A stretch of DNA of 64,000 nt, from the NCBI GenBank assembly GCA_949130485.1, contig OX422199.1, positions 1,483,902 through 1,547,901 on the forward strand, in the 5' to 3' direction. Positions 6,710 through 63,194 of the stretch are shown here, piece after piece. Both the position numbers and the translations under genes were made by a program. The notes under the pieces were generated by a model. The model was given only the letters and a program-made list of their open reading frames with translations. It did not search any database and was not told where the DNA came from. Origin of the DNA: Agelas oroides (Eukaryota; Porifera; Demospongiae; Agelasida; Agelasidae). Within the stretch, counting starts at the first letter, position 1; each line of letters opens with the position of its first letter.

Positions 6710-7040
6710 ATGGCTAGTATCACATTTGAGGAGCTGATTGCTCATGTTGGCATTTCAGCTGACGAACTGAACAAGCCATGCTCTGATGAGCACATTACCA
6801 GTATATCACTCTTCCTCGCTAACTGGCAGACAGTCGCACCTCTTCTGGGACTCACTGAAACAGATGAAGAGGATGTAGAAGAAGAGGGAAAGAACACACA
6901 GGACAAGAGATATAAAATCCTTCGAAGATGGAAGAAAAAGAATTCATTCAAAGCAACGTATCGAGTTCTAGTTGATGTTTTCTTGAGGCTTGGTGAAGCT
7001 GACCTCGCAGAGAAGGTGTGCACACTTCTGGTCGATAAAG
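6710..7040 (+). CDS. Death-domain exon, probable first exon of NLR-A
   Basis: Encodes about 110 residues starting MASITFEELIAH from an ATG at 6710. The pattern WQTVAPLLGL ... RYKILRRWKKK ... ATYRVLVDVFLRLGEADLAEK fits the six-helix Death domain (helix 2 to 6 hydrophobics, a Trp in the middle, terminal AEK). Death domains recruit partners with the same fold in apoptosis and innate signalling. The exon ends at AAAG|GTACAT, leaving one base (phase 1), which matches the phase-1 acceptor of the NLR-A exon at 8551. An upstream AG at 6697-6698 would also make it an internal phase-1 exon, so a further 5' exon is possible. The frame upstream of the ATG is microsatellite and is not counted. Confidence 0.75.
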
Positions 7041-8189
7041 GTACATATAAATTAGTGGAGCTATTAATGACTGTGTTACGCCAAATTAAAAGTCAAGGAT
7101 AGGGTCATAGGTAAAATTAATCAGCGTTAGAAACGGTGCTCATCACTTTACAACATAATTAGCCACCAAACAATTTAAGACCATTTTTGTTAGGGAGAAC
7201 ATGCAAGTACTTCATAATGTATGAACTCACTTCTTGATGATAGTTCTGTCATCTATGTGAGATAGTCAGAAGAAGTATCCACATGTGATCAAGGGCTAGG
7301 GTCACAGTTAAAATTAAAGTTCCCCACATTCCAAGAGTGTTAAAAGTACAAATTCCCCTGAGCATTGCAAGATTCTTATCTTCACTAACACTTGTCCACA
7401 AACTCAACAATTACTGTGTCTGAAATCCACCAGCAGAAGGGTTTGCAGCTTTCTAATGGTGCAAAAACCTTTCCAAATATTGCTTCAGGAAGTTATTAAT
7501 AACCTGAAAATAGATGAATTTCAAATGTTGTTCAATCGTATCTAGTACAAACTGGAATTGATGCTTGAGTGCAGTGGCCAGGTAGTCTAATGCCCAAACT
7601 CCACCCTCTCATGAGGATAAAGGATCTGGTTAGCCTCGTCCCCAGGCAACTCCCAGATTTTATCTCGCGGCCGTGGAGAAACAACTTTTCGCTTGGCCCA
7701 GTGACATTGTCATCTGATATGTGGATTGGCCAATCAGAGTGAATTTAGAGCAGTTATCAATTATTTTACTGTGTGCCTTGTGAAGAGAGAGAGGTGGTAG
7801 TAGGCGATGTCCCTCATGAGCTGTCACACAAGATTTAGAACTTCTTGGGACACAGCAAGAAAGCTACTTGTGCTTCTGTGTGTGCCTTCTTAGACAATTT
7901 CAATGTCCAGCACAGTGGTGTGGGAAGAAGATTGAGCAATGAATTGGGTGTCTGACCCTTCGTTGAAATCTTTAATTTTATGCTGCACTCGCAATTTTTG
8001 ACATGTGTAGCTAACACCCGGATGTACCAAGTAAGTAGTACACAATGAAAGGAAGAAAGTATGAAATTATACGATTACTAGCTATTAACTGGTCTTGACA
8101 GTATATGAATAAGGCCAGCCACCTGACTGCTGCTCACCCAGCATAGCTGATAAAGCCTGAAAAATATTTTCATATCAGTAGCAGTGTAT
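7041..8189. other. Intron of NLR-A, no gene seen
   Basis: Between the Death exon donor (7041) and the NACHT exon. The second half (about 7565-8189) is nearly identical to 46290-46905 in front of NLR-D, so the duplication joining NLR-A and NLR-D includes this intron. A half foldback end (GCCTCGTCCCCAGG) lies near 7636. Confidence 0.6.
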
Positions 8190-8470
8190 TCGAAGGTACA
8201 AACCCACCTCTTTTTGCCATGGTTTAGGATTACATCCTTGTCTACTCAGAGACAGGAATTAGGTTATGAATGAAATTTATTTTGTTTGCACCAAAAAAGG
8301 GGTGAACTCTGGCTATATTCATGCTTTACATAAGCATTCATGCCTTATTGGAACTTTGAGCTCACAAGGGATGTAACCCAAAACTGTGGTAAAGTGAGAG
8401 GTAGTGTGGGCCAAGGTCCTGCAACTGAGGTGACCCATCTAGGGTATATCGACCCAAGTAATTTTAAGTT
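8190..8470. mobile_element. Degenerate copy of the CACTGTAAAA MITE interior
   Basis: Matches the inside of the MITE at 9697-10160 (phrases such as GCCATGGTTTAGG and GGTCCTGCAACTGAGGTGACC), but the terminal inverted repeats are gone. A near-identical copy lies at 46905-47175 in front of NLR-D. Confidence 0.7.
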
Positions 8471-8550: not shown

Positions 8551-11500
8551 AGTCCAATCCATCTTGCTATCAATGCCCCCAGGAGTATGAGACTAATCTG
8601 CCGGCAAAAAAGATGGCGGCTAAGGACCAAGGAGAAACTGTGTGGCCACATAATCATTCAATTAAAAGATGGAAACTGGTGACCTTTGCCTTGATCATCT
8701 TAATAGCCTTGATAGCCTTGTATTTTTACAGTCCATCAACGGATTTACATCAGCCAGTGAAAGACTCCATGAAAAACTATACACAGTACAGGCCTACACA
8801 GTATATACAGTACGTTGATAATCTCAAGCAGCGGTATAAGAAGCACTTGCCTGATGTGGCACGATCATTTTGGTTGCCAGCAAATATGGATACGTTCATT
8901 CAACTCAGTTTAAAAAGCCAAAATATGCCACATGCTCCAAAAGTTGATCAGTATTCTGCCAATGCACGAATTATCTCTGAGCGATCAATGTCTTTCGACA
9001 ATTTCCTTTCTCAAATTGATACTTGTCCAGGTTCCAGGATTATTGTTGTTGGACAACCTGGAATTGGCAAAACGACCCTTCTGCAGATGATTACTCGTTC
9101 CTGGGCACATGACAAGGCTCTTTCCAGCTGTTTGATTCTACTTCATATTGTTCTACGTGATCTTGTGCTACTGCAGCATGCTCCAAATCTGACAACCTTT
9201 CTTAGTTTTATGGAAACTATCAAGCTCCCGCCTGATATTGAAACTCATGTTTTGGAGTCTGATGGCAAGGGACTATGCTTCATTGTAGATGGACTTGATG
9301 AATACCCAGCAGGTTATGAAGATAAAACTAACTTTATATTTCAATTAATTGGAGAAAAAACTAACACTAAACTTGCACAGTCCACCATTGTGATTTCATC
9401 TCGGCCAGAAGTAGCTTCACGTGTGTGGGATATGTTTGACAAACGTGTAGAGGTTCTTGGTTTTGGTGATGACCAAATAAATGAGTACATTCAAGCAAAG
9501 TACGGTGAAGACAAATCTTTTTCATTGTACCTGGATGATCATCCCCACATCAAATACACATGTTACATTCCTCTCCATTTAGCCATGTTGGTGTACCTCA
9601 AGGACTCCCTTCTTGAAAATTTGCCTGAAACTGAGACAGAAATTTATGAACAATTTACTATTCACAGATTAATTCGGGATTTTTGCAAAGACCCTACACT
9701 GTAAAAAATTGGAGGTTGATTTAACCCAGAAAAGGTCATCTCAGTTGCAGTCTGGATTCATCTAGGTCCAGGCAGTGGCTCACCTCCTTTTGCCAGGGTT
9801 TAGGGTTACACCCTTGTCCAGTGGAGGTTTCTAGCAAACAATGAATTGGGTTGCAAATGAAATTCATTTTGTTGTTTGTGCCAAAGGGGGTGGAACTCTC
9901 ACTATATTCATGTATTATTGGATTGACTCTGAAAAATATTCATGCACTATTGGCTAACCTTTGGACAGTATCTTTTATGCAAGTATTCATGCCATATTGG
10001 AACTTTGAGTACACAAACAGTGTAACCCTACACTGTGGTAAAAGTAGGAGGTGGTATAGATCCTGCAACTGAGGTAACCCATTTTAAACTGGATGATGAA
10101 TCCAGACTGCAACTGAGATGACCTTTTCTGGGTTAAATTAACCTCCAATTTTTTACAGTGTACATCATCCTGCAGCCGCAAGAACACATTGCCTACTTCC
10201 CTTAGTAATGTTGATGAGTTGAAAATTGAAAGCCTGCTTTTTCATATAGCAAACCTCTCCTACAATGGAATTCAGAAAAAACGGTTAATTTTTAAAGAAA
10301 AGGAAGTCAGCTCAGTTCTTCAACACACAAGGAGCAGTCTTTTAGTGGTTGACAAGATGAGTGTTCTTCAACCAGCAACATATAGCTTCCCACATCTAAC
10401 GATACAAGAGTTTCTTGCAGCTTTTTATTTCAACACTTACTTGACACAACAGGAACAGATGAGAGTGTTGGTAGAGTATTCCAATCAGCCAATACGAGAT
10501 GTTTTTTGGAAGTTTTGTTGTGGTCTGAAAAGAAATGAGAATCAAACAACTTTTCGTGAGTTTTTCAATCTGTTGTATCAGTACAATAATAGATCACATC
10601 TTCCCTATCACTGTGCTCATGAAGCACAATCACTAATTGCTTCTCAACAACTGATCAATTTCACTGGAGGGATTGCTGGCCTCTACTTTTTTTCATACTA
10701 TGATGCCGCTTCACTTGCATTTGTTGCTGTCAGTGCTGCTCAAAACTTGCGGGGCATAACATTTGCATTTTCGATAATCTTTTCCAAATTTATCCTACAC
10801 AAACTGTGTGATGCTACTACCAATTATTCTCAACTAAGGATAGTTCATTTACATCGGATTGAACCTTCCAATATTGGATGCCTTCTGCAAAAGTCACCTA
10901 ACCTCGAATCACTTATTGTAGTTGGTGATAACTGGTACAAGTTGCAATCAGAAGATGCTGCTGTTCTAGTTCTGCCTCCTGATGGAACTACACTTTTGAA
11001 CATCAGACATATAGATTTAAGTGGTCTCAATATTGGTGACAAAGGGGTTAAAAAACTTTCTCAACTTCTTCAACAATCGACTTTCTTAGAAACTCTTTCA
11101 CTACAAAACAATGATATTGGTGACAATGGAGCATCAGCAGTTGCTGACTTGATGAAAGCTCTTCCATATTTACAACACGTATATCTTGATGGTAATCGCA
11201 TTGGTGACAAAGGGGTTAAAAAACTTTCTCAACTTCTTCAACAATCGACTTTCTTAGAAACTCTTTCACTAAGAAACAATCATATTGCTGACAATGGGGC
11301 ATCAGCAATTGCTGACTTGATGAAAGCTCTTCCACGTTTACAACATGTATATCTTGTTCATAACCACATAGGAGGACGTGGGGCTGCTTTGCTCTGGAAC
11401 CAGTCCATTCACAAGTGCTGCAATTTAAGCCTGAATTACAATGTCATTGGAGATGACAGACCTGATGCTTTTATTAGTGCTTTGAATGGTACTGTAAACA

Positions 11501-12249
11501 ATGGATATGAAAGGAACAAGTCCTGTCAACTTAAAGTATACATACATGTGATTGGTAATAAATTTCTGTGCTCTGACCTAAGAGATATTCTTACAATCAG
11601 AAAACAACTGCCAAAAGGAGTGACACTAATAACTGATGTTGACTGTTTGGAGATGACTGAGAAGATATTCAAAAGATTTGAATACTATCTTGGTGAGAAT
11701 AGCCTACTCTTGTTCATAGGCTTCCACAAAGCTAAATTCCTATTTCTCCATGGGAGAATTTTGGTGAAAGTAGTGGCGATTCAATGGATATATTGTGCTG
11801 TTTGCATCTTCCACAATTTTTATTCAACTAGAACACTACTGTGGGGGTCATTGTATTTTTTCTGTTGCCTCAGTATTTCCATCTTGTCATCATTTAGATA
11901 TCTTGTGCTGGTAGATGAGTTCATTTTAATGTCATTTCTGTGGTCTTGGATAGTGGTGGGTAGACTTATTTTCTGTGTCTCACTCAAACTTCTCACCAAA
12001 CCATGGGGCTGGGTTCTTATTATTGCAATACTGGTGCAATTATATTTCACTGACTTCAAACTCATTGACTATCAATTATTTGCTTTTTTGTATATTGTAT
12101 TGATTTTAGGATATGTCCTTTTTCGTTTAGTACTGTTTCCACTTTGGTACTGTTTTCGTATTTGTTGTTCTAAGTTCTGTAGTATACTTTGGTCCTATGT
12201 TGGCTATAAATTTGTTATGGAAGTTCTTAAAATTGGTTTGCATTGCTAG
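8551..12249 (+). CDS. NLR-A terminal exon: TM, NACHT, LRR, poly-TM (MITE-interrupted)
   Basis: Phase-1 acceptor TTTCCTCCAG|AG at 8551 and stop at 12247-12249. In order: a charged segment ending KRWK, one hydrophobic helix (LVTFALIILIALIALYFY), NACHT with Walker A GQPGIGKTT and Walker B LCFIVDGLDEYP, sensor ISSRPE, winged-helix motif FPHLTIQEFLAAFY, two 56-residue LRR doublets (about 11033-11368), then about five hydrophobic segments to the end. NACHT ATPases act as nucleotide-driven oligomerisation switches in NLR sensors. The coding sequence is broken at 9697-10160 by a MITE that brings an in-frame stop at 9702-9704. If 9701-10175 is spliced out as a GT-AG phase-2 intron, the frame is kept and the Death exon plus this exon gives about 1184 residues. 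Otherwise this is a pseudogene. Confidence 0.8.
9697..10160. mobile_element. 464-bp MITE with TA target duplication
   Basis: Ends are CACTGTAAAAAATTGG and its reverse complement; the terminal inverted repeats run about 65 bp with almost no mismatches. It is flanked by TA on both sides (9695-9696 and 10161-10162), and removing the element plus one TA restores the sequence seen in the other four NLR genes. TA duplication points to the Tc1/mariner superfamily; no transposase inside. It sits within the coding exon of NLR-A just after NACHT. Confidence 0.93.
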
Positions 12250-18414: not shown

Positions 18415-19310
18415 AGGAAGAACCACTGTATGACAATGATGCATACAGGAATGAGATATTCAAAAAGTGTGACCCAATACAATGCGCAAACAGTGAGGAG
18501 CATCAAGCCATCAAGAAGTTTGCGAAGGAAGTCATAATTGTCATCCTATCTTGCAACAAAAATGAATACTATGCATCTCTTGAGCTGATGAAGGCTCCTA
18601 AAATCACGAAGCCTGATGGTCAGCAGTTGTTTGAAAGAGCTGTTCGATTTCCAAATGAGCATAACATGATAATTGCCGCTGGTATGTTTGCTGGACACAA
18701 AGCTGCCATTGCATTTACAGAACAAGGAGCATCCTGTGAAAGAGATATACGAAAGGTTCTTAACTGGTTCCCGAACACCAAGGCTCTCCTCGGAGTGGGT
18801 GTGGCCTATGGCATGAGCAGAGATGTAACTAAATTTTGTGACGTTCTTGTTGCATCGCAGATTGTTGACTATGGTGATAGGCCAAGAGTTGAGCATGGGG
18901 GATTTTATCAACGTGGTGCCATTGTTCCTACAAAGACTACCCTGAGGAACATATTCTGCAAAGATGACACAGGGTGGGAGTTTTCATGCACGAAAACCGA
19001 TCAGAAAGCCAAAGTTGTTGTTGGCCGGTTGGCTAGTGGCTCATTTCTCCTTGATGATGCTGGTGTCAAGAAGAGTATCCAGGAACAATTCAAAGATGCC
19101 AAGGGAGGTGAAATGGAAGGGTGGATCCTGTATACCCATATCGCGGAGGATTATCCTAATTTGGAGGTGATTATCATCAAGGGTGTGTCCGATTACGGTG
19201 ACGGAAGCAAAGATGGGCGATGGCAGCTCACTGCTGCAATGGCTGCTGCAAGCTACACCCACTTCCAGTTAGGGCGCTGCACCCCTTTCGATGGTATGAG
19301 GACTGTCTAA
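18415..19310 (+). CDS. PNP1 exon 4: nucleoside-phosphorylase-like (PNP_UDP) domain
   Basis: Phase-1 terminal exon, 297 residues plus stop at 19308-19310; with exons 1-3 the protein is about 454 residues. After an acidic start (EEEPLYDNDAYRN) the fold shows PNP_UDP superfamily marks: a glycine-rich strand-turn LLGVGVAYGM, the GGEMEGWILY helix (the EMEG motif of MTA/SAH nucleosidases and phosphorylases) and IKGVSDYGDGSKDGRWQLTA, where the Asp after Ser is the usual purine-contacting acid. The superfamily cleaves the N-glycosidic bond of nucleosides; in animals and fungi such domains also occur in immune-type receptors. The open frame upstream is only (CA)n translation and is excluded. Substrate and activity are unknown. 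Confidence 0.85.
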
Positions 19311-20849: not shown

Positions 20850-23752
20850 GGATCTGTGAAAGGATTGCTCAGGACCAAGGAGAAACCAAGCCACACAATT
20901 GTTCAAGATTAATGTGGGTTTCTGCCTTGATTGCCTTGGTGATTGCCTTGGCATTGATTGCAATTGGTTATTATAATTATACACCGTATGCACAGTATGT
21001 TCACAATGTCAAGCAACGCTACAAGACACACCTCCGTGATGTAGCACAATCATTTTGGTTACCAGCAAATATGCATACATTCATTCAACTCAGTCTAACA
21101 AGCCGAGATAAGCCACATGCTCCTAAGGTTGATGAAGATTCTCCTAATAAACGAATTGTCTCTGAGCAATCAATGTCTTTTGGCGATCTCCTCTCTGAGA
21201 TTGATGCTAGTCCAGGTTCCAGGATTCTTGTTGTTGGACAACCTGGAATTGGTAAAACAACTCTTCTGCAGACGATTATTCGTTCCTGGGCACATGACAA
21301 GGCTCTTTCCAGCTGTTGGATTCTACTTCATATTGTTCTACGTGATCTTGTGCCACTGCAACATGCTCCAAATCTGACAACCTTCCTTAGTTTTATGGAA
21401 ACTATCAAGCTCCCGCCTGATATTGAAACTTTTGTTTTGGACTCTGATGGCAAGGGACTATGCTTCATTGCAGATGGACTTGATGAATACTCAGCAGGTT
21501 ATGAAGATAAAACTAACATTGTATTTTCTGAATTGATTGGACCAGAACAAAAAACTAACATTAAACTTCCACAGTCCACTGTTGTGATTTCATCTCGACC
21601 AGAAGTAGCTTCACGAGTACGGCATTTGTTTGACAAACGTGTAGAAGTTCTTGGTTTTGGCAATGATCAAATAAATGAGTACATTCAAGCCAAGTATGGT
21701 GAAGACAAATCTCTTTCATCGTACTTGGATGATCATCCCCACATCAAACACACATGTTACATTCCTCTCCACTTAGCAATGTTGGTGTACCTCAAGGACT
21801 CCTTTGTTGATGATACGAATTTGCCTGAAACTGAGACAGAAATGTATGAACAGTTTATTATTCACACATTAATTCGTGATTTTTGCAAAGACCCTACATC
21901 ATCCTGCAGCTCCAAGAACACATTGCCTACTTCTCTCAATAATGTCGACGAGTTAAATTCATCACAAATTGTAAGGTTGCTCTTTCATATAGCAAACCTC
22001 TCATACAGTGGAATTCAGAAAAGACAGTCAATTTTTAAACAAAATGAAGTTGAGCCAGTTCTTCAACACACAAATAGCAGTCTTTTAGTGGTTGACAAGA
22101 TGAGTCTTCTTCATCCAACAACATATAGCTTCCCACATCTAACAATGCAAGAGTTTCTTGCAGCTTTTTATTTCAACACTTACTTGAACCAAACAGAACA
22201 GAAGAGAGTGTTAGAATATTCCAATCAGCCAATACGACGTGTTTTTTGGAAGTTTTGTTGTGGTCTGAAAAGAAATGAGAATCAAACAACTTTTCTTCAG
22301 TTTTTCAATCTGTTATATCACAATAATGAATCAAATCTTCCATATTACTGTGCTCATGAAGCACAATCAGTAATTGCTTCTCAACAACTGATCAACTTCA
22401 CTGAAGGAATTGTTGCACTTCGAATTCATTGGTATTCTTCGATGACATACTATGGTGCTGCTTCAGTTGCATTTGTTTCTGTCAGTGCTGCTGAAAACTT
22501 GCAGAAGTTAATAGTATATTCCGATGAGTATAGTCAATTTTTTCTGCACAAACTGTGTGATACTGCTACTGTTTATTCTCGACTAAGTAAAGTTGTTTTT
22601 TTCGGGATTCACCCTTCCAATATTGGATGCTTTCTACAAAAGTCACCTAACCTTGAATCACTTGTTATAAGTGGTTGGAAGTGGGACAAGTTACAATCAG
22701 AAAATGCTGCTGCTCTGGTTCTGCCTCGTTATGGAACTACACTATTAAACATCAGACATATAGATTTGAATAATTTGAAACTTGGTGACAGAGGGGTTAG
22801 AAAGCTTTCTCAACTTCTTCAAGAATCAACTTGCTTAAAAACTCTTTCACTAAGTCACAATGGTATTAGTGACAGTGGAGCATCAGCGATTGCTGACTTG
22901 ATGAAAACTCTTCCACATTTACAACATGTAAATCTTGCTCGTAACCACATAGGAGGACATGGGGCTGCTTTGCTCTGGAACCAGTCCATTCACAAATGCT
23001 GCAATTTAAGCCTGGATTATAATATCATTGGAGATGACAGACCTGATGTTTTTATTAATGCTTTGAATAGTACTGTAAAAAACAATTCTTGTCAAGTTCA
23101 AGTAAGTGTGTTTGGTAATAATTTTCTGTGCTCTGACCTAATAGATATTCTTACTATCAGCAAAATATTACCAAAAGGATCACCTATGCAAAGAACTGAT
23201 TTATGTTTGGAGATAATTGAAAAGATACTGAAAAGATCGGATTACTATACGAATACATATGTTAGTAAGAATTTCCAGTCTTGTAAGATGTGGCTGCACT
23301 GGATACTGTATGCTGTTTGCACCTTGCACGTTCTTCATTCAACTAAAAAACTACAATGGAGTTTGTTGTATTTATTTTGTTGCCTCACTATTTATATGTT
23401 GTCATCATTTGACTATCTTGTGCTGGTAAAACATTTCAATTTCACTCTGTCAGTTCTGTGGTGTTGGATAGTGGTGGGTAGACTTATTTTCTGTGTCTCA
23501 CTCAAACTTCTCTCCAAACCATGGGGCTGGGTTCTTATCATTGCAGTAGTGGTGAAATTATACTTCACTGACTTCAAACTCATTGATCATCAATTATTTG
23601 CTTTTTTGTATATTCTGTTGATTTTAGGGTATATTCTCTTTGATTTAGGACTGTTCCCACTTTGGTACTATGTAGGTATTTGCTGCTCTAAGTTTTATGA
23701 TAGACTTTGGTCCTATCTTGCTTATGAATTTGAAATTGGTTTGCATTGTTAG
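20850..23752 (+). CDS. NLR-B terminal exon: TM, NACHT, LRR, poly-TM
   Basis: Phase-1 acceptor TGCATGCAG|GG at 20850 and stop at 23750-23752, about 967 residues. Order: GICERIAQDQGE leader, hydrophobic helix (VSALIALVIALALIAIGYY), NACHT (GQPGIGKTT, LCFIADGLDEYS, ISSRPE), winged-helix SFPHLTMQEFLAAFYF, one 56-residue LRR doublet, and about five hydrophobic segments ending in YLAYEFEIGLHC. The frame is intact throughout. No CARD or Death exon is visible between the PNP1 stop (19310) and this exon. Either the first exon is unrecognised, or upstream phase-1 exons of PNP1 are spliced to it, or translation starts at an ATG just upstream (20828). Confidence 0.88.
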
Positions 23753-30126: not shown

Positions 30127-31022
30127 AGGAAGAACCACTGTATGACAATGATGCATACAGGAATGAGATATTCAAAAAGTGTGACCCAATACGATGCACG
30201 AACAGTGATGAGCACCAAGCCATCAAGAAGTTTGCAAAGGAAGTCACAATTGTCATCCTATCTTGCAACAAAAATGAATACTATGCATCTCTTGAGCTGA
30301 TGAAGGCTCCAGAAATCACGAAGCCTGATGGTCAGCAGTTGTTTGAAAGAGCTGTTCGATTTCCAAATGAGCATAACATGATAATTGCCGCTGGCATGTT
30401 TGCTGGACACAAAGCTGCCATCGCATTTACAGAACAAGGAGTATCCTGTGAAAGAGATATACGAAAGGTTCTTAGCTGGTTCCCGAACACCAAGACTCTC
30501 CTCGGAGTGGGTGTGGCCTATGGCATGAACAAAGATGTAACTAAATTTTGTGACGTTCTTGTTGCATCGCAGATTGTTGACTATGGTGATAGGCCAAGAG
30601 TTGAGCATGGGGGATTTTATCAGCGTGGTGCCATTGTTCCTACAAAGACTACCCTGAGGAACATATTCTGCAAAGATGACACAGGGTGGGAGTTTTCATG
30701 CACGAAAACCGATCGGAAAGCCAAAGTTGTTGTTGGTCGATTGGCTAGTGGCTCATTTCTCCTTGATGATGCTGGTGTCAAGAAGAGTATCCAGGAACAA
30801 TTCAAAGATGCCAAGGGAGGTGAAATGGAAGGGTGGATCCTGTATACCCATATTGTGAAAGAGTATCCCAATTTAGAGGTGATTATCATCAAGGGGGTGT
30901 CCGATTACGGTGATGGAAGCAAAGATGGGCGATGGCAGCTCACTGCGGCAATGGCTGCTGCAAGCTACGCCCACTTCCAGTTAGGGCGCTGCACCCCTTT
31001 CGATGGTATGAGGACTGTCTAA
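30127..31022 (+). CDS. PNP2 exon 4: nucleoside-phosphorylase-like domain
   Basis: Phase-1 terminal exon of exactly the same length as PNP1 exon 4 (896 bases), stop at 31020-31022. All superfamily marks are kept: LLGVGVAYGM, GGEMEGWILY, IKGVSDYGDGSKDGRWQLTA. Differences are a dozen or so scattered replacements, for example NW to SW before FPNTK and HIAEDYP to HIVKEYP. The domain is open and looks constrained, but expression as a full protein is doubtful because exon 1 carries a stop and exon 3 lost its acceptor; use of another 5' exon is possible. Confidence 0.8.
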
Positions 31023-34525: not shown

Positions 34526-37491
34526 GCATCTGTGAAAGAATTGCTCAGGACCATAGAGAAAGGGAGCCACACAATTGCTCATGGTGGAAACTAGCAATGT
34601 GGGTTTTTGCCTTGATTGTCTTGGCATTGATTGCAATTGGTTATTATAATTATACACTGAAGTATGCACAGTATGTTGATAAAGTCAAGCAATGTACACT
34701 GTATGCTGGCAAAGTCAAGCAGCGGTACAAGAACCACCTTCGTGATGTAGCACAATCATTTTGGTTGCCAGCAGATATGGATACGTTCATTCAACTCAGT
34801 CTAACAAGCCGAAATAACCCATGTGCTGCAAGAGTTGATAAATATTCTGCCAATCCACGAATTGTCTCTGAGCGATCAATGTCCTTCGACAATCTCCTCT
34901 CTGAAATTGATGCTAGTCCAGGTTCCAGGATTCTTGTTCGTGGACAACCTGGTATTGGCAAAACAACCCTTCTGCAGATGATTACTCGTTATTGGGCACA
35001 TGAAAGAGCTCTTTCCAGCTGTTGGATACTACTCCACATTGTTCTACGTAATCTTGTGTTTCTGCAACCTGCTCCAAATCTGACAACCTTTCTTAGTTTT
35101 ATGAAAACTATCAAGCTTCCGCCTGATATTGAAACTTTTGTTTTGGAGTCTGATGGCAAGGGACTGTGCTTTGTTGTGGATGGACTTGATGAATACCCAG
35201 CAGGTTATGAAGACAAAAGTAACTTTATATTTTCTGAGTTGATTGGAGCACAAAAGCCTTACATTAAACTTGCACAGTCCACTGTTGTGATTTCATCTCG
35301 ACCAGAAGTAGCTTCACGTGTATGGCATTTGTTTGACAAACATGTAGAAATTCTTGGTTTTGGTGATGACCAAATAGATGAGTACATTCAAGCCAAGTAT
35401 GGTGAAGATAAGTCTTTTTCAAAGTACTTGGATGATCATCCCTACATCAAACACACATGTTACATTCCTCTCCACTTAGCCATGTTGGTGTACCTCAAGG
35501 ACTCCCTTCTTGAACATTTGCCTGAAACTGAGACAGAAATGTATGAACAGTTTATTTTTCACACATTAATTCGTGATTTTTGCAAAGATCCTACATCATC
35601 CTGCAGCCGCAAGAACACATTACCTACTCCTCTCAATAATATTATCAATGAGTCATCAGAAATTGGAAGCCTGCTTTTTCATATAGCAAACCTCTCATAC
35701 ATTGGTATTCTGAAAAGACAGTCAATTTTTACAGAAGTCGAGTCAGTTCTTCAACACACAAACAGCAGTCTTTTAGTCGTTGACAAAATGAGTGTTCTTC
35801 AACCAACAACGTATAGCTTCCCACATCTAACAATACAAGAGTTTCTTGCAGCTTTTTATTTCAACACTTACTTGAAGCAACAGGAACAGAAAAGAATATT
35901 GGTAGAGTATTCCGAACAGCAAATACGACAGGTTTTTTGGAAGTTCTGTTGTGGTCTGAAAAGAAATGAGAATCAAACAACTTTTCTTGAGTTTTTCAAT
36001 CTGTTGTATCAGTACAATAATGAATCAATACTTCCATATCACTGTGCTCATGAAGCACAATCACTAAATGCTTCTCAACAACTGATCAATTTCACTGGAG
36101 GGATTGCTGAACTCAATGGTTTTCCAACGTACTATGATGCTGCTTCATTTGCATTTGTTGCTGTCAGTGCTGCTCAAAACTTGCGGGAGATAATGTTAAG
36201 AATTTGGAACAGATTTTTTCGGCACAAACTGTGTGATGCTACAACCAATTATTCTCAACTAAGGAAAGTTAAGTTACTGATTCCCCCTTCCAATATTGGA
36301 TGCCTTCTGCAAAAGTCGCCTAGCCTTGAATCACTTCATATAGATGGTTTGTTCTGGGACAAGATACAATCAGAAGATGCTGCTGCTCTAGTTCTGCCTC
36401 CTTATGGAACTACACTTTTGAACATCAGACATATAGGTTTGAACCGTCTCAACATTGGTGACAAAGGGGCTAAAAAGCTTTCTCAAATTCTTCAAAATTC
36501 GAGTTTTTTAGAGATTCTTTCACTAATAGACAATAGTATTAGTAACAAAGGAGCATCAGCAATTGCTGACCTGATGAAAACTCTTCCACATTTACAAGGT
36601 GTATATCTTAATGATAATCTCATTGTTGACAAAGGGGTTGAAAAACTTTCTCTACACCTTCGAGATTTGATATTCTTGAAAACTCTTTCACTAAGTCACA
36701 ATGGTATTAGTGACAATGGAGCATCAGCAATTGCTGACTGGATGAAAGCACTTCCACATTTACAACGTGTACATATTGCTCATAACCACATAGGAGGACA
36801 TGGGGCTGCTTTGCTCTGGAACCAGTCCATTCACAAGTGCTGTAATTTAACCCTGGATTGGAATATCATTGGGGATGACAGACCTAATGCTTTTATTAAT
36901 GCTTTGATTGATACTGTAAACAATGGACATGAAAGGAACGAGTCCTGTCAACTTGAAGTAAGTATGCTATATAATAAATTTCTGTGCTCTGACCTAAGAG
37001 ATATTCTTACAATCAGAAAACAACTGCCAAAAGGAGTGACGCTAATAACTGGTGATGACTGTTTGGAGATGACTGAGAAGATACTCAAAAGATTTAAATA
37101 CTATCTTGGTAAGATCCACCCCCCTAGTGAGTCAGGGCTCCAATGGATATTTCATGCTGTTTGCACCTTCCACATTTTTTATTCAACTAGAACACCACTG
37201 TGGGTGTTGTTGTATTTTGTTTGTTGTCTCTGTCTTTTTATCCCGTCATTATTCAACTGTCTTGTGTGGTTAGATTATTTCATTTTCACTGTGTCATTAC
37301 TGTGGTCTTGGATAGTTGTGGGTAGACTTATTTTCTGTGTGTCACTCAAACTTCTCTCCAAACCATGGGGCTGGGTTCTTATCATTGCAGTAGTGGTACA
37401 GTTATATTTCACTGACTTCAAACTCATTGACTATCAATTTTTTGCTATTTTGTATGTTGTATTGATTTTAGGGTATGTGACTAGAAGTTAG
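34526..37491 (+). CDS. NLR-C terminal exon: TM, NACHT, LRR, poly-TM (shortened C-terminus)
   Basis: Phase-1 acceptor TATATGCAG|GC at 34526, stop at 37489-37491, about 988 residues. Hydrophobic helix LAMWVFALIVLALIAIGYY after an Arg/Glu-rich leader, a duplicated short segment before NACHT (YAQYVDKVKQCTLYAGKVKQ), Walker A GQPGIGKTT, Walker B LCFVVDGLDEYP, ISSRPE, SFPHLTIQEFLAAFYF and two LRR doublets. The C-terminal hydrophobic block ends early (LILGYVTRS), because the last part of the gene is present downstream in inverted orientation (37545-37741). Function would be as in NLR-A with the last hydrophobic segment cut short. No first exon was recognised between PNP2 and this exon. Confidence 0.87.
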
Positions 37492-37544: not shown

Positions 37545-37741
37545 TTCATAGCACCACACGCCAAAATGAATAATACATACAAGAAATTAATATTACAGAC
37601 ATCAAACCTAACAATGCAAACCAATTTTAAGAACCTCCATAAAAAAATTCATAACCAAGATAGGACCAAAGTCTACCAGAGAACTTAGAACAGCAAATAC
37701 CTAAATAGTACCAAAGTGGGAAAAGTCCTAAATCAAAAAGG
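37545..37741 (-). pseudogene. Inverted 3' end of an NLR gene
   Basis: Read on the - strand this matches the last coding bases and 3' flank of NLR-B (23645-23790), with recognisable text such as CCCACTTTGGTACTAT and GGTTTGCATTGTTAGG. It is the missing end of NLR-C turned around, so the truncation of NLR-C is due to a local inversion. Confidence 0.85.
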
Positions 37742-38948
37742 ATGGCTGGAAGTTAAGTTTATGCTAGCATTTCAAATCGGCTTACGTTTAAACTAAACCA
37801 CATCCCATTATGTAGTTTACAGAAAGTGGTTTCCAAACCGCATTAGGGGCATTTACACAGTTGCCCTGAACCAATTTGAAACCAGTTTAAGTTAAACGGA
37901 GCTTAAGCCTAGCAGCTCCATACCACTGCAGCTAAGTGTGTGACCATTGCTGATTAAAGAATGGAAAATATTTAGTGGGAGGCTGATGAAGTTTATTACT
38001 CAAGTCTCAGCTCTCACTGAATTTTAATCTTTTCCAGCATTAGGCATGGGGAGGACTGTCATAGCTGGAAGTTAGCCTTGATCCCATCACTCACTATTTG
38101 CAGCTCCATCTCCACGTAGCTATATACGTAGTAAATACAAAGTCATGCATGTAGCATAATGTAATTGAAGGACCAAGAACTACATGCATAGTGGACCAAC
38201 ACCATATATTAAAGTACTGGAAATTGCCTGAATTGCAATGAAACATGCATGCATCCTATGAACGTATGGTCAGAAATTGAAAATCTTAAATTTTAGCAGC
38301 TCCTAAAGCATATTTTAAAAGTATTTACGGAGAGCTAACCTTGACATTTGTGATTTAAACAGCTGTTGTTACTACAGCTGCACGTTTTGTTTTTAATCTG
38401 GCAATACCATGTATACAAGGACACCGAAACCAGCACTTCTCATGCACATGTGGTGCAAAGCAGTCAGTTTCCAGTTTCCAGTCAATCACGACACAAGGTT
38501 TTTTCAAGGGCTGGGAGAGCCAAAGAAAGAGGCTCACATGACACGTATTGGATTATTGATAATTTGGTTGTGGGCATACATTATTTGGTTTTTACACACA
38601 GAAATACTGAAAGTACATACAAATAGAAATGTTAGAAAGTTTGTCAATGAATCAGAAGGATGATGGACATCAATCAGGTCAGTGAAGAAATTTACTGCAA
38701 ACATAAACAACGTAGGTGAATTATTGTGTACATTAAACATAATAATTATGTAGGTGAATTATTGTGTACATTAAACATAATAATTATGTGTAACAGTGTT
38801 TGTGAGTTGTGTACAACCTATGTTGTAATCTGTTCTTGTTTCTGCCTCATGATCAACAAAACTGTGAGGAAAGAAGTTCAAAATTGGTATCAGGCCACGT
38901 GACCACTGAAACATGACATCACATGTACAGTCACATGACATTCCTCAC
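37742..38948. other. 3' flank of NLR-C, no gene seen
   Basis: From about 37915 it matches the flanks of NLR-B and NLR-D. A direct duplication of about 30 bp (TAGGTGAATTATTGTGTACA) lies at 38714-38787. Confidence 0.5.
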
Positions 38949-45027: not shown

Positions 45028-45340
45028 ATGGCTACTGGTGGTAGAGAAAGCTTCAATCCTGCCTACGAGGCATTCCATAAGAACTCTGCAGATCTGCTGA
45101 CGGTAATACAGGACCCCGAGGTCCTGGCATGGGATCTGTATTCAAAAGATATCATCACTGCAGACGAACGTAAAGCTGCCTGTTACCATCTGCACAGCAG
45201 AAGCATGAGGACTTCAAACCTGCTGTCGGCTGTAGAGTCACGGATCGCAGTGAACCCAGGAGCATTTGATGTATTTCTGGCTGTGCTTGCCAAGCAACCC
45301 TCGATGAGTGACCTCTGCAGGCGAATGAAGGATGCGTATG
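45028..45340 (+). CDS. CARD-like exon, first exon of NLR-D
   Basis: ATG at 45028 (context ATCATGG), 104 codons plus one base, donor GCGTATG|GTAAGT (phase 1). The helix pattern ADLLTVIQDPEVLAWDLYSK, a charged loop, SNLLSAVESRIAVNPGAFDV, then FLAVLAKQPSMSDLCRRMKD fits a CARD: LL..v..R in helix 4, F..fl..L in helix 5. CARDs form homotypic filaments with CARD adaptors. The exon is the same length as the one at 59456-59768, with many replacements but no indels, so both are under coding constraint. The intron to 47274 is 1.9 kb. Confidence 0.82.
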
Positions 45341-46904: not shown

Positions 46905-47175
46905 AAAGGTACAAACCCACCTCTTTTTGCCATGGTTTAGGATTACATCCTTGTCTACTCAGAGACAGGAATTAGGTTATGAATGAAATTTATTTTGTAA
47001 TTGCATGTTTGCACCAAAAAAGGGGTGAACTCTGGCTATATTCATGCTTTACATAAGCATTCATGCCTTATTGGAACTTTGAGCTCACAAGGGATGTAAC
47101 CCAAAACTGTGGTAAAGTGAGAGGTAGTGTGGGCCAAGGTCCTGCAACTGAGGTGACCCATCTAGGGTATATCGA
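46905..47175. mobile_element. Degenerate copy of the CACTGTAAAA MITE interior
   Basis: Near-identical to 8190-8470, differing by small indels; no terminal repeats remain. Confidence 0.7.
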
Positions 47176-47273
47176 CCCAAGTAATTTAAAGTTGTCATAA
47201 GTGGTAAGCATAATAGAAGGTTTAACATTGAAATTAATAAAGGTCAACTTTGTCTGCCTCTACTTTCCTCCAG

Positions 47274-50200
47274 AGTCCAATCCATCTTGCTATCAACATT
47301 CCCAGGGGTATGAGACTAATCTGCCGGCAAAAAAGATGGTGGCTAAGGACCAAGGAGAAACTGTGTGGCCACATAATCATTCAATTAAAAGATGGAAATT
47401 GGTGACCTTTGCCTTGATCATCTTAATAGCCTTGATAGCCTTGTATTTTTACAGTCCATCAACGGATTTACATCAGCCAGTGAAAGACTCCATGAAAAAC
47501 TATACACAGTACAGGCCTACACGGTATATACGGTATGTTGATAAAGTCAAGCAGCGGTACAAGAAGCACCTGCGTGATGTAGCACAATCATTTTGGTTGC
47601 CAACAAAGATGCATACGTTCATTCAACTCAGTTTAAAAAGCCAAAATATGCCACATGCTCCAAAAGTTGATCAATATTCTGCTAATAAACGAATTGTCTC
47701 TAACCGATCAATGACCTTTGACAATCTTCTGTCTGAAATTGATGCTAGTCCAGGTTCCAGGATTCTTGTTGTCGGACAACCTGGTATTGGCAAAACGACC
47801 CTTCTGCAGATGATTACTCGTTACTGGGCACATGACAGGGCACTTTCCAGCTGTTGGATTCTACTTCATATTGTTCTACGTGATCTTGTGCTACTGGAAC
47901 ATGCTCCAAATCTGACTACCTTTCTTAGTTTTATGGGAACTATCTGGCTCCCGCCTGATATTGAAACTTTTGTTTTGGAGTCTGATGGCAAGGGACTGTG
48001 CTTCATTGTAGATGGACTTGATGAATACCCAGTAGGTCATGAAGATAAAACTAACTTTATATATTCTGAGTTGATTGGAGCACAAAAGCCTAACATTAAA
48101 CTTGCACAGTCTACTGTTGTGATTTCATCTCGACCAGAAGTAGCTTCACAAGTACGGCATTTGTTTGACAAACGTGTGGAGGTTCTTGGTTTTGGTGATG
48201 ACCAAATAAATGAGTACATTCAAGCCAAGTACGGTGAAGACAAATCATTTTCAAAATACTTGGATGATCATCCCCACATCAAACACACATGTTACATTCC
48301 TCTCCACTTAGCCATGTTGGTGTACCTCAAGGACTCCCTTCTTGAAAATTTGCCTGAAACTGAGACAGAAATTTATGAACAATTTACTATTCACAGATTA
48401 ATTCGGGATTTCTGCAAAGACCCTACATCATCCTGCAGCCGCAAGAACACATTGCCTACTTCTCTCAATAATATTGATGAGTTGAAAGTTGAAAGCCTGC
48501 TTTTTCATATAGCAAACCTCTCCTACAATGGAATTCAGAAAAAACGGTTAATTTTTAAAGAAAAGGAAGTCAGCTCAGTTCTTCAACACACAAATAGCAG
48601 TCTTTTAGTAGTTGACAAGATGAGTGTTCTTCAACCAGCAACGTATAGCTTCCCACATCTAACGATACAAGAGTTTCTTGCAGCTTTTTATTTTAACACT
48701 TACTTGAGCCAACAGGAACAGAGAAGAGTGGTGGTCGAGTATTCCAGTCAGCCAATGCGAGATGTTTTTTGGAAGTTTTGTTGTGGTCTGAAAAGAAATG
48801 AGAATCAAACAACTTTTCTTCAGTTTTTCAATCTGTTGTATCAGTCCAATAATGAATCAGAACTTCCATATCACTGTGCTCATGAAGCACAATCACGAAT
48901 TGCTTCTCAACAACTGATCAAATTCACTAAAGGGATTGCTAAACTCAGTTTATCAACATACTATGATGCTGCTTCATTTGTTTTTGTTGCTGTCAGTGCT
49001 GCTGAAAACTTGCTGTGGATAGACACATTTTTTGTAAGGTTTCACACAGTTTTTCTGCAAAAACTCTGTGATGCTACTACTGTTTTCTCTCAACTAAGGA
49101 GAGTTTATTTACGCAACATTTACCCCTCCAATATTGGATGCCTTCTGCAAATGTCACCTAAACTTGAATCACTTCGTTTAGAGGGTTCAAACTGGGACAA
49201 GTTACAATCACAAGATGCTGCTGCTCTAGTTCTGCCTCCTTATGGAACTACACTTTTGAACATCAGACGTATACGTTTAGATGATCTCAACATTGGTGAC
49301 AAAGGGGTTAAAAAGCTTTTTCAACTTATTCAAGATTCGAGATTCTTAGAAGCTCTTTCACTACAACGAAATGGTATTAGTGACGATGGAGCATCAGCGA
49401 TTGCTGACTTAATGAAAGCTCATCCACGTTTACGATGGGTATTTCTCAATGGTAATCACATTGGTGACACAGGGGTTAAAAAACTTTCTCAACTTCTTCA
49501 AGATTCGATATTTCTGGAAACTCTTTCACTAAATGGTAATAGCATTAGTGAAAATGGAGCATCAGCAATTGCTGACTTGATAAACGCTCTTCCACATTTA
49601 CGACATGTAGGTATTGATGGTAACCACATTGGTGACAAAGGAGTTGAAAAACTTTCTCAACTCCTTCGAGATTCAATTTTCTTAGAGACTCTTTCACTAG
49701 AGGGCAATCATATTGGTGACAATGGAGCATCAGCAGTTGCTGACTTGATGAAAGCTCTTCCACATTTAAGACATGTTTATCTTGCTCGTAACCACATAGG
49801 AGGAACTGGGGCTGCTTTGCTCTGGAACCAGTCCATTCATAACTGCTGCAATTTAAGCCTGGAATTTAACATCATTGGACATGACAGACTTGATGCTTTT
49901 ATTAGTGCTTTGAATGATACTGTAAACAATGGGTATGAAAGGAATGAGTCCTGTCAATCTCTAGTAAGTATGCGATATGGTAATATATTTCTGTGCTCTG
50001 ACCTAAGAGATATTCTTACAATCAGCAAAAAACTGCCAAAAGGAGTGATACTAATAACTGATAATTCTCACTGTGTGAAGACGATTATCAAAAAATTACA
50101 ACCTGGTTCTGAATTTTTGAAGATGACTGAGAAGATATTCCAAAGATTTCAATACTATCTTGTTGAGAATCAGGCAGTGTTTCAATGTATATATCATGTT

Positions 50201-50602
50201 GTTTGCACCTTCCACATTTTTTATTCAACTAGAACAAAACTGTGGGGGTTGTTGTATTTTGTTTGTTGTCTCAGTCTTTTTATTCTGTCATCATTTAACT
50301 ATCTTGTGCTGGTAGATTATTTCATTTTCATTGTGTCATTTCTGTGGTCTTTTACAGTGGTGGGTAGACATATTTTCTGTGTGTCACTCAAACTTCTCTT
50401 TAAACCATGGGGCTGGGTTCTTATCATTATTATTGCAGTAATAATGCAATTATATTTTATTGACTTCAAACTCATTGACTATCAATTTTTTGCTTTTTTG
50501 TATATTGAATTGATTTCAGGGTATATTCTTTATCGTTTACGTCAGACAGTTTTCACTGTATTATTTTTGTATTTGCTGCTCCAAGTTGCTTTGGTAGACT
50601 AA
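47274..50602 (+). CDS. NLR-D terminal exon: TM, NACHT, LRR, poly-TM
   Basis: Phase-1 acceptor TTTCCTCCAG|AG; stop at 50600-50602. Joined to the CARD exon the protein is about 1213 residues: CARD 1-104, hydrophobic helix about 146-164 after SIKRWK, Walker A GQPGIGKTT about 272-280, Walker B LCFIVDGLDEYP about 346-357, sensor TVVISSRPE about 385, winged-helix FPHLTIQEFLAAFY about 564-577, three LRR doublets of exactly 168 bp (49292-49795), then about five hydrophobic segments from about residue 1075 to the end. The longest LRR of the five. The last about 25 residues (RQTVFTVLFLYLLLQVALVD) differ from NLR-A and NLR-B, as if the tail had shifted frame. Otherwise the gene is fully open and is the best candidate for a working member. 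Confidence 0.9.
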
Positions 50603-51773: not shown

Positions 51774-51857
51774 CAGTTGTTATAGCTCAGTGGTAGAGCA
51801 CTGCATTGGCAGTTCAATCCAGGAGCCTTGAATTGGGTTCGATTCTCGGCAGCTGCA
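51774..51857 (+). tRNA. tRNA-like element (probable tRNA-derived SINE or decayed tRNA)
   Basis: An internal Pol III A box TAGCTCAGTGG (51783-51793) and B box GGTTCGATTCT (51836-51846) are present. CAGTTGT at 51774 can pair with GCAGCTG at 51849 with two GT wobbles, and GCTC/GAGC forms the D stem. The anticodon arm does not fold properly and the spacing between the arms is about 10 bases longer than in a standard tRNA, so I do not assign an amino acid. Confidence 0.45.
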
Positions 51858-59455: not shown

Positions 59456-59768
59456 ATGGCTACTGGTGGGGAAGAGAGCTTCAATCTTGCCTACAAGGTG
59501 TTCCGTAAGCACTCTGGGGACCTGCTCACGGTCATACAGGACCCTGAGGTCCTTGCATGGGAGCTGTATGCTGAAAACATCATCCCTCCAGCAGTACGAG
59601 ACGCTGTCACTTACATGATGCACGAGAAGGGTGCAAGGACCACGAAACTGCTGATAGCTGTGGAGTCAAAGATTAAGGTGGACCAAGGAGCATTCAACGT
59701 GTTTCTGTCCGTGCTTGCCAAGCAACCTTCAATGAGTGACCTCTGCGGGAGAATGAAGGATACATATG
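59456..59768 (+). CDS. CARD-like exon, first exon of NLR-E
   Basis: ATG at 59456 (context ACCATGG; a second ATG is 6 bases upstream), 104 codons plus one base, donor ACATATG|GTAAGT, phase 1. Same CARD pattern as the NLR-D exon: LLTVIQDPEVLAWELYAENI, TKLLIAVESKIKVDQGAFNV, FLSVLAKQPSMSDLCGRMKD. The phase-1 acceptor of the NLR-E exon lies only 427 bases downstream. Confidence 0.83.
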
Positions 59769-60195
59769 GTAAGTGGGGCAAGCTAATTTGGATGGAAGTA
59801 AGAATCTTGAATATCCTGTTGTAAGACCTGTAAAGCACACATGATTGTACCATGAGTCTCACACCTGCCCACAGAGCCTGTGAAAATAGAAATAGTTGGT
59901 TCCTTGTCGATTGCAGGGCCGTAGCTGCCGATCCAGTTAGTCCGGTTTCAACCGGACCACTTTTTTCCTCACTTTTGGCTTGCTTGGCATCACCAATTAG
60001 CGCAACGGCTCAACGGATGCCCATGCATGGAAGCTCCACACACATACAACATGCACGTTAAGTCAGTAGTCTGTGAAATGGACTATATAGTGTCTAGTAT
60101 TCTTCATTTCTAAGCAAGTGTGTGGCTTCATAGTACTGTTCACCTGAGTACTTGTTTTTGTTATATCTCAGTATTTTGATCCATTATTTTTGCAG

Positions 60196-63194
60196 GGATT
60201 TTTGAAAGAGAGAAAAATCAAATGCTGGCTGGTTCAGTCCATGAACCTGCTCAGCACCAAAGAGAAACTGAGTCACACAATCGAAGACGGAAATTAGCAA
60301 TGTCCTTTTTTGCCTTGGTCATTTCGATTGTAGCATTGCTTACAATCTGTTACATATTTTTACATCAGCCAGTGAAAGACTCCATGCCAGAACATTATGC
60401 ACAGTATGTTCACAATGTCGAGCAACGGTACAAGAGACACCTCCGTGATGTAGCACAACCATTTTGGTTACCAGCAGATATGGATATGTTCATTCAACTC
60501 AGTCTAACAAGCCAAAATAAGTCACGTGTTCCAAAAGTTGATCAATATTCTGCTAATAAACGAATTGTCTCTGAGCGATCAATGTCCTTCAATGATCTTC
60601 TCTCTGAAATTGATGCTAGTCCAGGTTCCAGGACTCTTGTTGTCGGACAACCTGGTATTGGCAAGACAACCCTTCTGCAGATGATTACTCGTTACTGGGC
60701 ACATGACAAGGCTCTTTCCAGCTGTTGGATTCTACTTCATATTGTTCTACGTGATCTTGTGCTACTGCAACATCCCCCAAATCTGACAACCTTTCTTAGT
60801 TTTATGGGAAATACGGTGTTCCCGCCTGATATTGAAACTTTTGTTTTGGAGTCTGATGGCAAGGGACTATGCTTCATTGCAGATGGACTTGATGAATACC
60901 CAGCCGGCTATGAAGATAAAACTAACTTTGTATTTCAAGTAATTGGAGAAAAAACTAACACTAAACTTGCACAGTCCACTGTTGTGATTTCATCTCGGCC
61001 AGAAGTAGCTTCAAAATTAAGGGACATGTTTGACAAACGTGTAGAGGTTCTTGGTTTTGGTGATGACCAAATAAATGAGTACATTCAAGCAAAGTACGGT
61101 GAAGACAAATCTTTTTCATCGTACCTGGATGATCATCCCCACATCAAAGACACATGTTACATTCCTCTCCATTTAGCCATGTTGGTGTACCTCAAGGACT
61201 CCCTTCTTGAAAATTTGCCTGAAACTGAGACAGAAATTTATGAACAATTTACTATTCACAGATTAATTCGGGATTTCTGCAAAGACCCTACATCATCCTG
61301 CAGCCGCAAGAACACATTGCCTACTTCTCTCAATAATATTGATGAGTTGAAAGTTGAAAGCCTGCTTTTTCATATAGCAAACCTCTCCTACAATGGAATT
61401 CAGAAAAAACGGTTAATTTTTAAAGAAAAGGAAGTCAGCTCAGTTCTTCAACACACAAATAGCAGTCTTTTAGTAGTTGACAAGATGAGTGTTCTTCAAC
61501 CAGCAACGTATAGCTTCCCACATCTAACGATACAAGAGTTTCTTGCAGCATTTTATTTTAACACTTACTTGAGCCAACAGGAACAGAGAAGAGTGGTGGT
61601 CGAGTATTCCAGTCAGCCAATGCGAAATGTTTTTTGGAAGTTTTGTTGTGGTCTGAAAAGAAATGAGAATCAAACAACTTTTCTTCAGTTTTTCAATCTG
61701 TTGTATCAGTCCAATAATGAATCTGGTCTCGTACTTAAATACGTCTCCAAAAGAAAAATTGGTTGGGTACCAGATTTTAACATATCAGAAATTCCATTTC
61801 ATCGCAAAGAACTTCTATATCACTGTGCTCTTGAAGCACAATCACTAATTGCTTCTCAACAACTGATCAATTTTACTAGAGGGATTGCTGAACTCAATGG
61901 TTTTCCAACATACTATTTCACTGAAGGAATTGTCACTTCTATCCATCCTTCATACTATGATGCCGCTTCATTTGCATTTGTTGCTGTCAGTGCTGCTCAA
62001 AATTTACGGGAGATAAACGGATACTATTATAAGTATCCTCAATTTCTCCTGCACAAACTGTGTGATGCTACTACCAATTATTCTCAACTAAGGAAGGTTA
62101 TTTTACTTTTGAATGAACCTTCCAATGTTGGATGCCTTCTGCAAAAGTCACCTAAACTTGAATCACTTATTGTAGTTGGTTTGAACTGGGACAAGTTGCA
62201 ATCAGAAGATGCTGCTGCTCTAGTTCTGCCTCCTTATGGAACTGAACTTTTGAACATCAGATATATACATTTAGAAGATCTCAACATTGGTGACAAAGGG
62301 ATTAAAAAACTTTCTCAACTTCTTCAAAATTTAACTTCCTTAGAAACTCTTTCACTAGAGGGCAATCATATTGGTGACAATGGAGCATCAGCAATTGCTG
62401 ACTTGATGAAAGCTCTTCCACATTTAAGACATGTTTATCTTGCTCGTAACCACATAGGAGGACGTGGGGCTGCTTTGCTCTGGAACCAGTCCATTCATAA
62501 GTGCTGCAATTTATACCTGGATTACAATGTCATTTGGCATGACAGACCTGATGCTTTTATTCATGCTTTGAATGATACTGTAAACAATGGACATGAAAGG
62601 AATGAGTCCTGTCAATTTCTAGTAACTATGCTATATGGTAGTAATTTTCTGTGCTCTGACCTAAGAGATATTCTTACAATCAGCAAAAAACTGCCAAAAG
62701 GAGTGATGCTAATAACTGATGATTCTCACTGTGTGAATATGATTATCAAAAAATTGCCAATAACGCTACAAACTGGTTCTGAATTTTTGAAGATGACTAA
62801 GAAGATACTCAGAAGATTTGAATACTTCCTTGGTGAGAATCATCCCCCTATTTGGGCAGGGTTTCAATGGATATCTTATGCTGTTTGCACCTTCCACATT
62901 TTTTATTCAACTAGAACAAAACTGTGGTGGTTGTTGTATTTTTGTTGTTGTCTCAGTCTTTTTGTCTTGTCAACATTTGACTATCTTGTGCAGGTAGATT
63001 CTTTCAGTTTCATCATGTCATTTCTGTGGTCTTGGATAGTGGTGGGTAGACTTATTTTTCGTGTGTCACTCAAACTTCTCTTTAAACCATGGGGCTGGGT
63101 TCTTATCATTATTATTGCAGTAGTGGTGAAATTATATTTTATTGACATCAAACTCATTGACTATCAATGTTCTGCTGTTTATATATTGGATTGA
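60196..63194 (+). CDS. NLR-E terminal exon: TM, NACHT, LRR, poly-TM (C-terminal frameshift)
   Basis: Phase-1 acceptor TTTTTGCAG|GG at 60196. With the CARD exon about 1103 residues: CARD 1-104, hydrophobic helix about 139-160 (MSFFALVISIVALLTICYIF) after RRRK, Walker A GQPGIGKTT about 255-263, Walker B LCFIADGLDEYP, ISSRPE, FPHLTIQEFLAAFY, one LRR doublet and about four hydrophobic segments. Two oddities: an insert of about 30 residues (GLVLKYVSKRKIGWVPDFNI...) plus a small duplication (GFPTYYFTEGIVT) before the LRRs, unlike the other members; and one base missing at about 63172 relative to NLR-D, so the protein ends YQCSAVYILD instead of continuing into the last hydrophobic segment. About 61140-61720 is almost identical to 48300-48870 of NLR-D. 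Confidence 0.88.

Follow-up and report, generated by a model that had tools for sequence, protein, structure and literature searches.

The 64-kb window analysed here (the whole stretch C17:1483902-1547901 of the 259 Mb Agelas oroides assembly) holds a tandem array of genes for NACHT and leucine-rich-repeat (LRR) receptors of the NLR type, in five units that we call U1 to U5, all on the + strand. In every unit the large exon encodes, in order, a hydrophobic segment (TM1), a linker, NACHT, helical domains, LRRs and a hydrophobic tail, and an exon upstream encodes a putative effector domain. Both NACHT (PF05729) and LRR_6 scored above cut-off in 5/5 units, the solved relatives of the NACHT region found by profile search include 5irm and NLRP3 entries, and the residues that we take to be Walker A, Walker B and sensor-1 are invariant in seven aligned copies, all of which upholds the NLR identity given to the five units in the original prediction. 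At the protein level U3 to U5 are 71-74% identical to U2, and the two pieces of U1 are 71% and 77% identical to it, so the units are diverged copies. The five large exons counted in that prediction hold for U2 to U5, but U1 is not a single exon, being split by an insertion at 9699-10160. The features of the array, in window coordinates, are as follows.

6710..7040, +: U1 start exon, Death domain (PF00531, E=2.9e-9); donor GTACAT, phase 1
8551..9698, +: U1 large exon part 1, TM1 (8667-8732) and NACHT; phase-1 acceptor
9699..10160, +: inverted-repeat insertion splitting U1, resembling a miniature inverted-repeat transposable element (MITE); TACA target duplication
10161..12246, +: U1 large exon part 2, helical domains, LRR and tail (TMb-TMe, ~11836-12144)
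18415..19293, +: U2 purine nucleoside phosphorylase (PNP) nucleosidase-like exon, 879 nt, symmetric phase 1-1 (PF01048, E=6.6e-4, below cut-off)
20850..23752, +: U2 large exon, TM1 (20906-20974), NACHT, LRR and tail (~23288-23662)
30127..31005, +: U3 PNP nucleosidase-like exon, symmetric phase 1-1; 95% identical to the U2 PNP exon
34526..37491, +: U3 large exon, TM1 (34582-34647), NACHT, LRR and tail (~37135-37485)
37636..37755, - (C17:1521537-1521656): match to the last part of the tail, just after U3
45028..45340, +: U4 CARD start exon (PF00619, E=7.4e-4, below cut-off); donor GTAAGT, phase 1
47274..50602, +: U4 large exon, TM1 (47390-47455), NACHT, LRR and tail (~50243-50596)
59456..59768, +: U5 CARD-like start exon, 66% identical to the U4 CARD; donor GTAAGT, phase 1
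60196..63194, +: U5 large exon, TM1 (60294-60362), NACHT, LRR and tail (~62850-63143); frameshifted near its end

Four more copies of the family lie outside the window, nine in total: copies A and B just upstream on C17, which extend the array to seven units, copy C ~1.3 Mb further on, and copy D on C14. In copies A (1074 aa) and D (1073 aa), Death, TM1, NACHT, LRR and tail stand in a single open frame, so TM1 parts the effector from NACHT without any splice model. This position of TM1, between effector and NACHT, was overlooked in the original prediction, as were the differing N-terminal domains (Death, PNP and CARD). In some copies 168-nt LRR units are tandemly duplicated (49266-49901; 11006-11473), and LRR number therefore differs between paralogues.

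Hydrophobic segments before NACHT and after the LRRs

Membrane propensity was scored as the free energy of insertion (dG) on the Hessa scale. The best TM1 values were -4.1, -3.7, -3.5, -4.1 and -3.5 kcal/mol for U1 to U5, with Kyte-Doolittle 19-residue means of 2.4-2.9, so the hydrophobic helix proposed before NACHT is present in 5/5 units; across the family TM1 scored below 0 in 9/9 copies (range -4.1 to -0.3, copy C having -0.3). Behind the LRRs, segments with dG < 0 numbered four in U1, four in U2 (one at -0.00), four in U3, three in U4 and three in U5, and a further marginal segment, TMa (dG 0.6-2.5), occurs in U1, U2, U3 and U5; the "about five" segments predicted there are thus real as membrane-type segments in all units, with the number corrected to 3-5. 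The stretch ALSSCWILLHIVLRDLVLL is also high on the Kyte-Doolittle scale, but lies inside NACHT with dG 0.7-2.2 and was not counted. Composition shuffles (40 each of U2, U4 and copy D) gave a mean of 0.7-0.95 segments below 0 and a maximum of three, against five, four and five observed.

Control NACHT frames were a sample (314 candidate loci listed, 105 scored): no segment with dG < 0 occurred in 17/17 other NACHT frames (two pairs score identically, and some are cut at the end of the locus), no TM1 preceded NACHT in 20/20 further frames (one of them, L079, is too short, with only 75 residues before the P-loop), and TM1 was found in 1/38 frames sampled outside the family. This single frame, L028 (C2:6669086-6672289, minus strand), is ~31% identical to the family, which supplies its best matches after itself, and is the closest relative; its TM1 scores -3.1, and its frame has no C-terminal membrane segment below 0, which suggests that TM1 arose before the tail. 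A death-like frame spotted by eye upstream of L028 had no Pfam match at E<=1, and no effector is claimed for it. A 158-residue query from the U2 tail, searched against the genome at E<=10, returned nine family loci and no others; its 11 matches (13 candidates were scored) include two additional fragments, belonging to U3 and B. Among 101 pattern stretches from viral contigs and 138 from bacterial and archaeal genomes, no homologue of the tail was confirmed.

Evolutionarily, the tail behaves as coding sequence. Across seven family copies dN/dS was 0.27 for NACHT, 0.96 for the LRRs and 0.53 for the tail from TMb to TMe, with a window across TMc-TMd at 0.32 and windows in the LRR region at 0.57-1.35. 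In the DNA alignment up to TMe, indels from TMb onward measure 3 and 6 nt, except for a 1-nt deletion in U5; whole-codon gaps in the tail alignment were not used as evidence, that alignment being of translated frames. A constrained tail beside fast-changing LRRs is as expected for a translated membrane anchor next to a diversifying sensor, not for an intron. TM1, by comparison, has a mean identity of 35% among the seven copies, against 85% for NACHT, and is hydrophobic throughout; when neutral drift was simulated from the U4 TM1 (300 runs), dG < 0 was kept in 65% of runs at 60% identity and in 20% at 35%. The original prediction had taken a pattern kept across diverged copies as a real family feature, and its presence in 9/9 genome copies (the tail of copy B having stops), with purifying selection on the tail, bears this out. 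Thus, from these predicted properties, we consider it very likely that the NLRs of this family are integral membrane proteins.

Two alternatives would undercut this conclusion, and we hold each to be improbable. The membrane segments might be missing from the mature protein, with TM1 or the tail spliced out or with TM1 serving as the cleaved signal peptide of a shorter product, for which an in-frame ATG ~18 codons before TM1 in U4, and upstream in-frame ATGs in the large exons of U1 and U5, could provide a start; such removal agrees poorly with the purifying selection on the tail, with its length changes of 3 and 6 nt (the U5 deletion apart), and with the common open frame of Death, TM1 and NACHT in copies A and D. 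Alternatively, the array could consist mostly of decaying duplicates whose layout says little about a working protein. Signs of decay are indeed at hand, in the mobile element of U1 (~460 bp, MITE-like, with nearly perfect inverted ends over the at least 50 bp compared and a 4-bp TACA duplication), the stops in the tail of copy B, the 1-nt deletion that ends the U5 frame before TMe, and the rearranged tail end of U3, the last part of which matches the opposite strand at 37636-37755. Yet the frames of U2, A, C and D run open for 966-1074 codons and look intact over the large exon, NACHT is constrained, and the layout is kept in copies on another contig and ~1.3 Mb away; part of the array may be decaying while the family itself is not. 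The tail end of U4 differs from that of the other units and is common to copy A.

Differing N-terminal domains on a common body

The N-terminal exon is a Death domain in U1, PNP nucleosidase-like in U2 and U3, a CARD in U4 and a homologue of that CARD in U5. The cut-off for Death was reached or exceeded in U1, A (exactly reached), B, C and D. The PNP exons of U2 and U3 scored 19.6 and 18.7 bits against PF01048, below its cut-off of 25.1, and E 2.4e-7 and 3.7e-7 against the NCBI MTA/SAH nucleosidase model, also below the model cut-off; the U2 exon matched the PADLOC models PDC-M60C (E=1.7e-15) and a PN-superfamily effector (E=2.3e-13), and a sequence search of solved structures with the PNP exon gave weak nucleosidase matches only, at E 0.4 and above. 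Both exons carry the motifs GGEMEG and KGVSDYGDG, of which we take the MEG motif to be the catalytic Glu and the SD motif the catalytic Asp of PNP/UDP nucleosidases; GEMEG recurs in 17/18 other PNP-like loci found by tblastn, whereas the count for the Asp motif is limited to U2 and U3. A start exon upstream of the U2 and U3 PNP exons was not found with the Death, CARD and PNP exons of the window as queries or by DNA comparison with other PNP loci, and two candidate frames there were set aside, having no Pfam match.

For the U4 CARD, the AlphaFold2 model is a helical bundle (predicted local distance difference test, pLDDT, 76.7 for the best of five models, the others having 72.2, 49.3, 42.8 and 40.4), and its best matches in the PDB are mostly CARDs of Apaf-1 and NOD1; the top 20 have query TM-scores of 0.64-0.77, no match reaches E<=0.001, and the first-ranked one is a designed protein. 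The U5 start exon has no Pfam match of its own and is assigned as a CARD by homology to U4 only.

Phase-1 donors were found on 5/5 effector exons and phase-1 acceptors on 5/5 large exons, and the PNP exon is symmetric; from this we infer that the effector exons are spliced onto the large exons. Because the phases match, effector exons would be exchangeable without breaking the frame. U1 and U4 capture such an exchange: they are 97-99% identical from ~46,480 to 47,500 and 52-54% identical before 46,020, which puts a breakpoint within the intron; upstream of it U1 has Death and U4 has CARD. Related exons are plentiful across the genome (at least 119 for Death and 121 for CARD, matches at E<=0.01), and among 12 NACHT exons examined 1-7 kb downstream of Death or CARD exons on the same strand, pairs set by position, TM1 was found in none (L079 again being too short). 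From these alignments and intron phases we are confident that effectors were swapped between copies by recombination.

PNP-like exons also lie near NACHT exons elsewhere in the genome, for example at C3:545697 with NACHT at C3:543017, and NLRs outside this membrane-NLR family may also have PNP as an effector. In copy B (L016), an in-frame repeat of about ten residues (HNQDRGETEP-like) between Death and TM1 forms a coding minisatellite in the linker.

Topology and relation to known receptors

TM1 stands between effector and NACHT, so if it spans the membrane, the effector and the NACHT-LRR body lie on opposite sides. Death, CARD and nucleosidase domains act in the cytosol. Charges around TM1 agree with a cytosolic N side, with 34 Lys+Arg before it and 22 after it in 10 proteins (U1 and U4 being alike there). 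N-glycosylation motifs provide another line of evidence: enrichment over the whole core (1.89x in the family, 1.49x in controls) was too weak alone and was therefore split by region, offset and column. In the family, 105/397 Asn residues (26%) have Ser/Thr at +2, compared with 10-18% for the 11 other offsets, conserved columns number 12 at +2 and 3-7 at other offsets, and two sites, each in 8/9 copies, are common to L028 and missing from 7/7 aligned relatives without membrane segments. Taken together, effector type, flanking charges and N-glycosylation motifs make us lean towards the effector inside and NACHT-LRR outside.

Several observations weigh against this arrangement or against the membrane prediction beneath it. 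The charge bias around TM1 is modest. The sequon excess is partly shared by 15 controls (73/370, or 20%, against 9-16% at other offsets), LRR sequons exceed expectation more in controls (2.07x) than in the family (1.61x), and L028 taken alone has no excess (10/58). TMa is marginal and, like the stretch preceding it, unconstrained (dN/dS 1.03), so the number of passes is tentative, as is the fit of the tail charges to NACHT outside; without TMa those charges, judged by eye, favour LRRs in the cytosol. Intact Walker motifs suit a cytosolic, ATP-using NACHT. The TM1 dN/dS of 0.38 comes from near-saturated dS and a gappy alignment, the dG values are to be read as approximate, and the AlphaFold2 model of the 966-residue U2 exon (six window sequences; mean pLDDT 43.9) is usable in its LRR part only, its tail helices, mostly at pLDDT < 50, being set aside as evidence; the model says nothing on the membrane. 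Decay of U1, and perhaps of U3 and U5, is also possible.

The chief rival keeps NACHT-LRR in the cytosol, with the tail as anchor and with TM1 either non-spanning (a surface or hairpin helix) or placing the effector outside. Invariant Walker A, Walker B and sensor-1 residues would be accounted for, as would the four tail helices, which (by eye, uncounted) obey the positive-inside rule with LRRs in the cytosol if TMa is no helix. This rival must also explain why TM1, copy C (-0.3) excepted, is as hydrophobic as a true membrane helix and why Lys/Arg is in excess on its N side overall, and its outside-effector version would misplace Death, CARD and PNP domains, whose families are established as cytosolic; we regard it as possible, short of probable. 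A non-cytosolic NACHT-LRR is, in our estimate, an evenly balanced proposition. Somewhat more tentative is the full inside-out NLR, in which cytosolic Death, CARD or PNP domains would be joined to a glycosylated lumenal or extracellular NACHT-LRR anchored by a multi-pass tail, perhaps using lumenal or extracellular ATP and swapping effectors through phase-1 introns, so that a STAND switch would be used like the ectodomain of a Toll-like receptor. Torsins are a precedent for an AAA+-type ATPase acting in the ER lumen, and are not NLRs.

We posit, as the probable best overall explanation, a membrane NLR built of effector, TM1, NACHT, LRR and multi-pass tail and working as a signal-anchored receptor. 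Since TM1 would emerge from the ribosome before any other hydrophobic segment, preceded by a folded domain of ~100 residues or more and with Lys/Arg just before it, it may act as a signal-anchor, leaving the effector in the cytosol and moving NACHT-LRR to the lumenal or outer face, after which the tail would return into the membrane and anchor the protein. The fast-changing LRR region would meet the ligand, NACHT would cluster the receptors, and clustering of the cytosolic effectors would produce the output, with Death and CARD domains recruiting adaptors or caspases and the PNP domain cleaving nucleotides; recombination in the intron would exchange these outputs on the common sensor body. A function of the family in immune sensing seems likely to us.

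In most descriptions, NLRs are sensors of the cytosol, with effector and NACHT switch in the same compartment. A family in which a conserved membrane helix separates effector from NACHT either departs from this assumption or demands a new mechanism. The array also captures the swapping of effectors (Death, PNP, CARD) while the sensor body stays common, at least one breakpoint being intronic; it illustrates how a receptor family may alter its output yet keep its sensor.

A class of membrane-bound sensors not described before, as the original prediction suggested, is too broad a claim. In the available text of a Dysidea avara study, sponge NLRs have transmembrane domains, with the first report credited to Amphimedon queenslandica (PMC12909245); as in the Agelas family, NACHT and LRRs are joined in an animal protein, the N-terminus is Death or CARD in part of the set, membrane segments are predicted in some members, and neighbouring copies are near-identical. 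Position and number of the segments are not given in that text, and the word "phosphorylase" is absent from the main text of the study. Actiniarian NLRs, also proposed to be membrane-bound, cluster 3-5 transmembrane domains N-terminally (PMC5094078, as excerpted), whereas in the Agelas family a single segment separates effector from NACHT and 3-5 follow the LRRs. According to a fungal review, PF01048 is often found at the N-terminus of NLRs and has been described in bacteria as an ATP nucleosidase of immunity (PMC10197012). What the Agelas family has in common with fungal NLRs and bacterial defence proteins is a PNP-family effector placed N-terminally in a NACHT protein; the Agelas domain differs in being a symmetric phase 1-1 exon, presumably spliced, before a TM1-NACHT-LRR body. 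Toll-like receptors would be alike, if NACHT-LRR is outside, in having LRRs outside and a signalling domain inside; they are unlike the Agelas family, which has a STAND NTPase beside the LRRs, a multi-pass tail, and no TIR match in any exon scanned (large, effector and outside-copy exons).

The portions compared of PMC12909245, PMC5094078, PMC8260672, PMC6040629, PMC8195603, PMC10197012, PMC12409349 and PMC7308585 describe no effector-NACHT segment combined with a multi-pass tail, and no exchange of effectors on a body of this kind, the original Amphimedon report and the Dysidea figure lying outside the comparison. Membrane-bound NLRs are, then, already known in sponges and sea anemones, and against these partial sources the two-ended layout with swapped effectors appears new, an earlier description being possible.

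Elsewhere in the window, which has no Rfam match at gathering scores, stretches at 27914-28316, 8325-8439 and 47055-47161 are akin to parts of the U1 MITE-like element or its kin. A 39-bp minisatellite with 12 registered start points occupies 38962-39624, and a predicted tRNA-Ala (GGC) at 51776-51858, between U4 and U5, may be due to chance or be a SINE-like copy.

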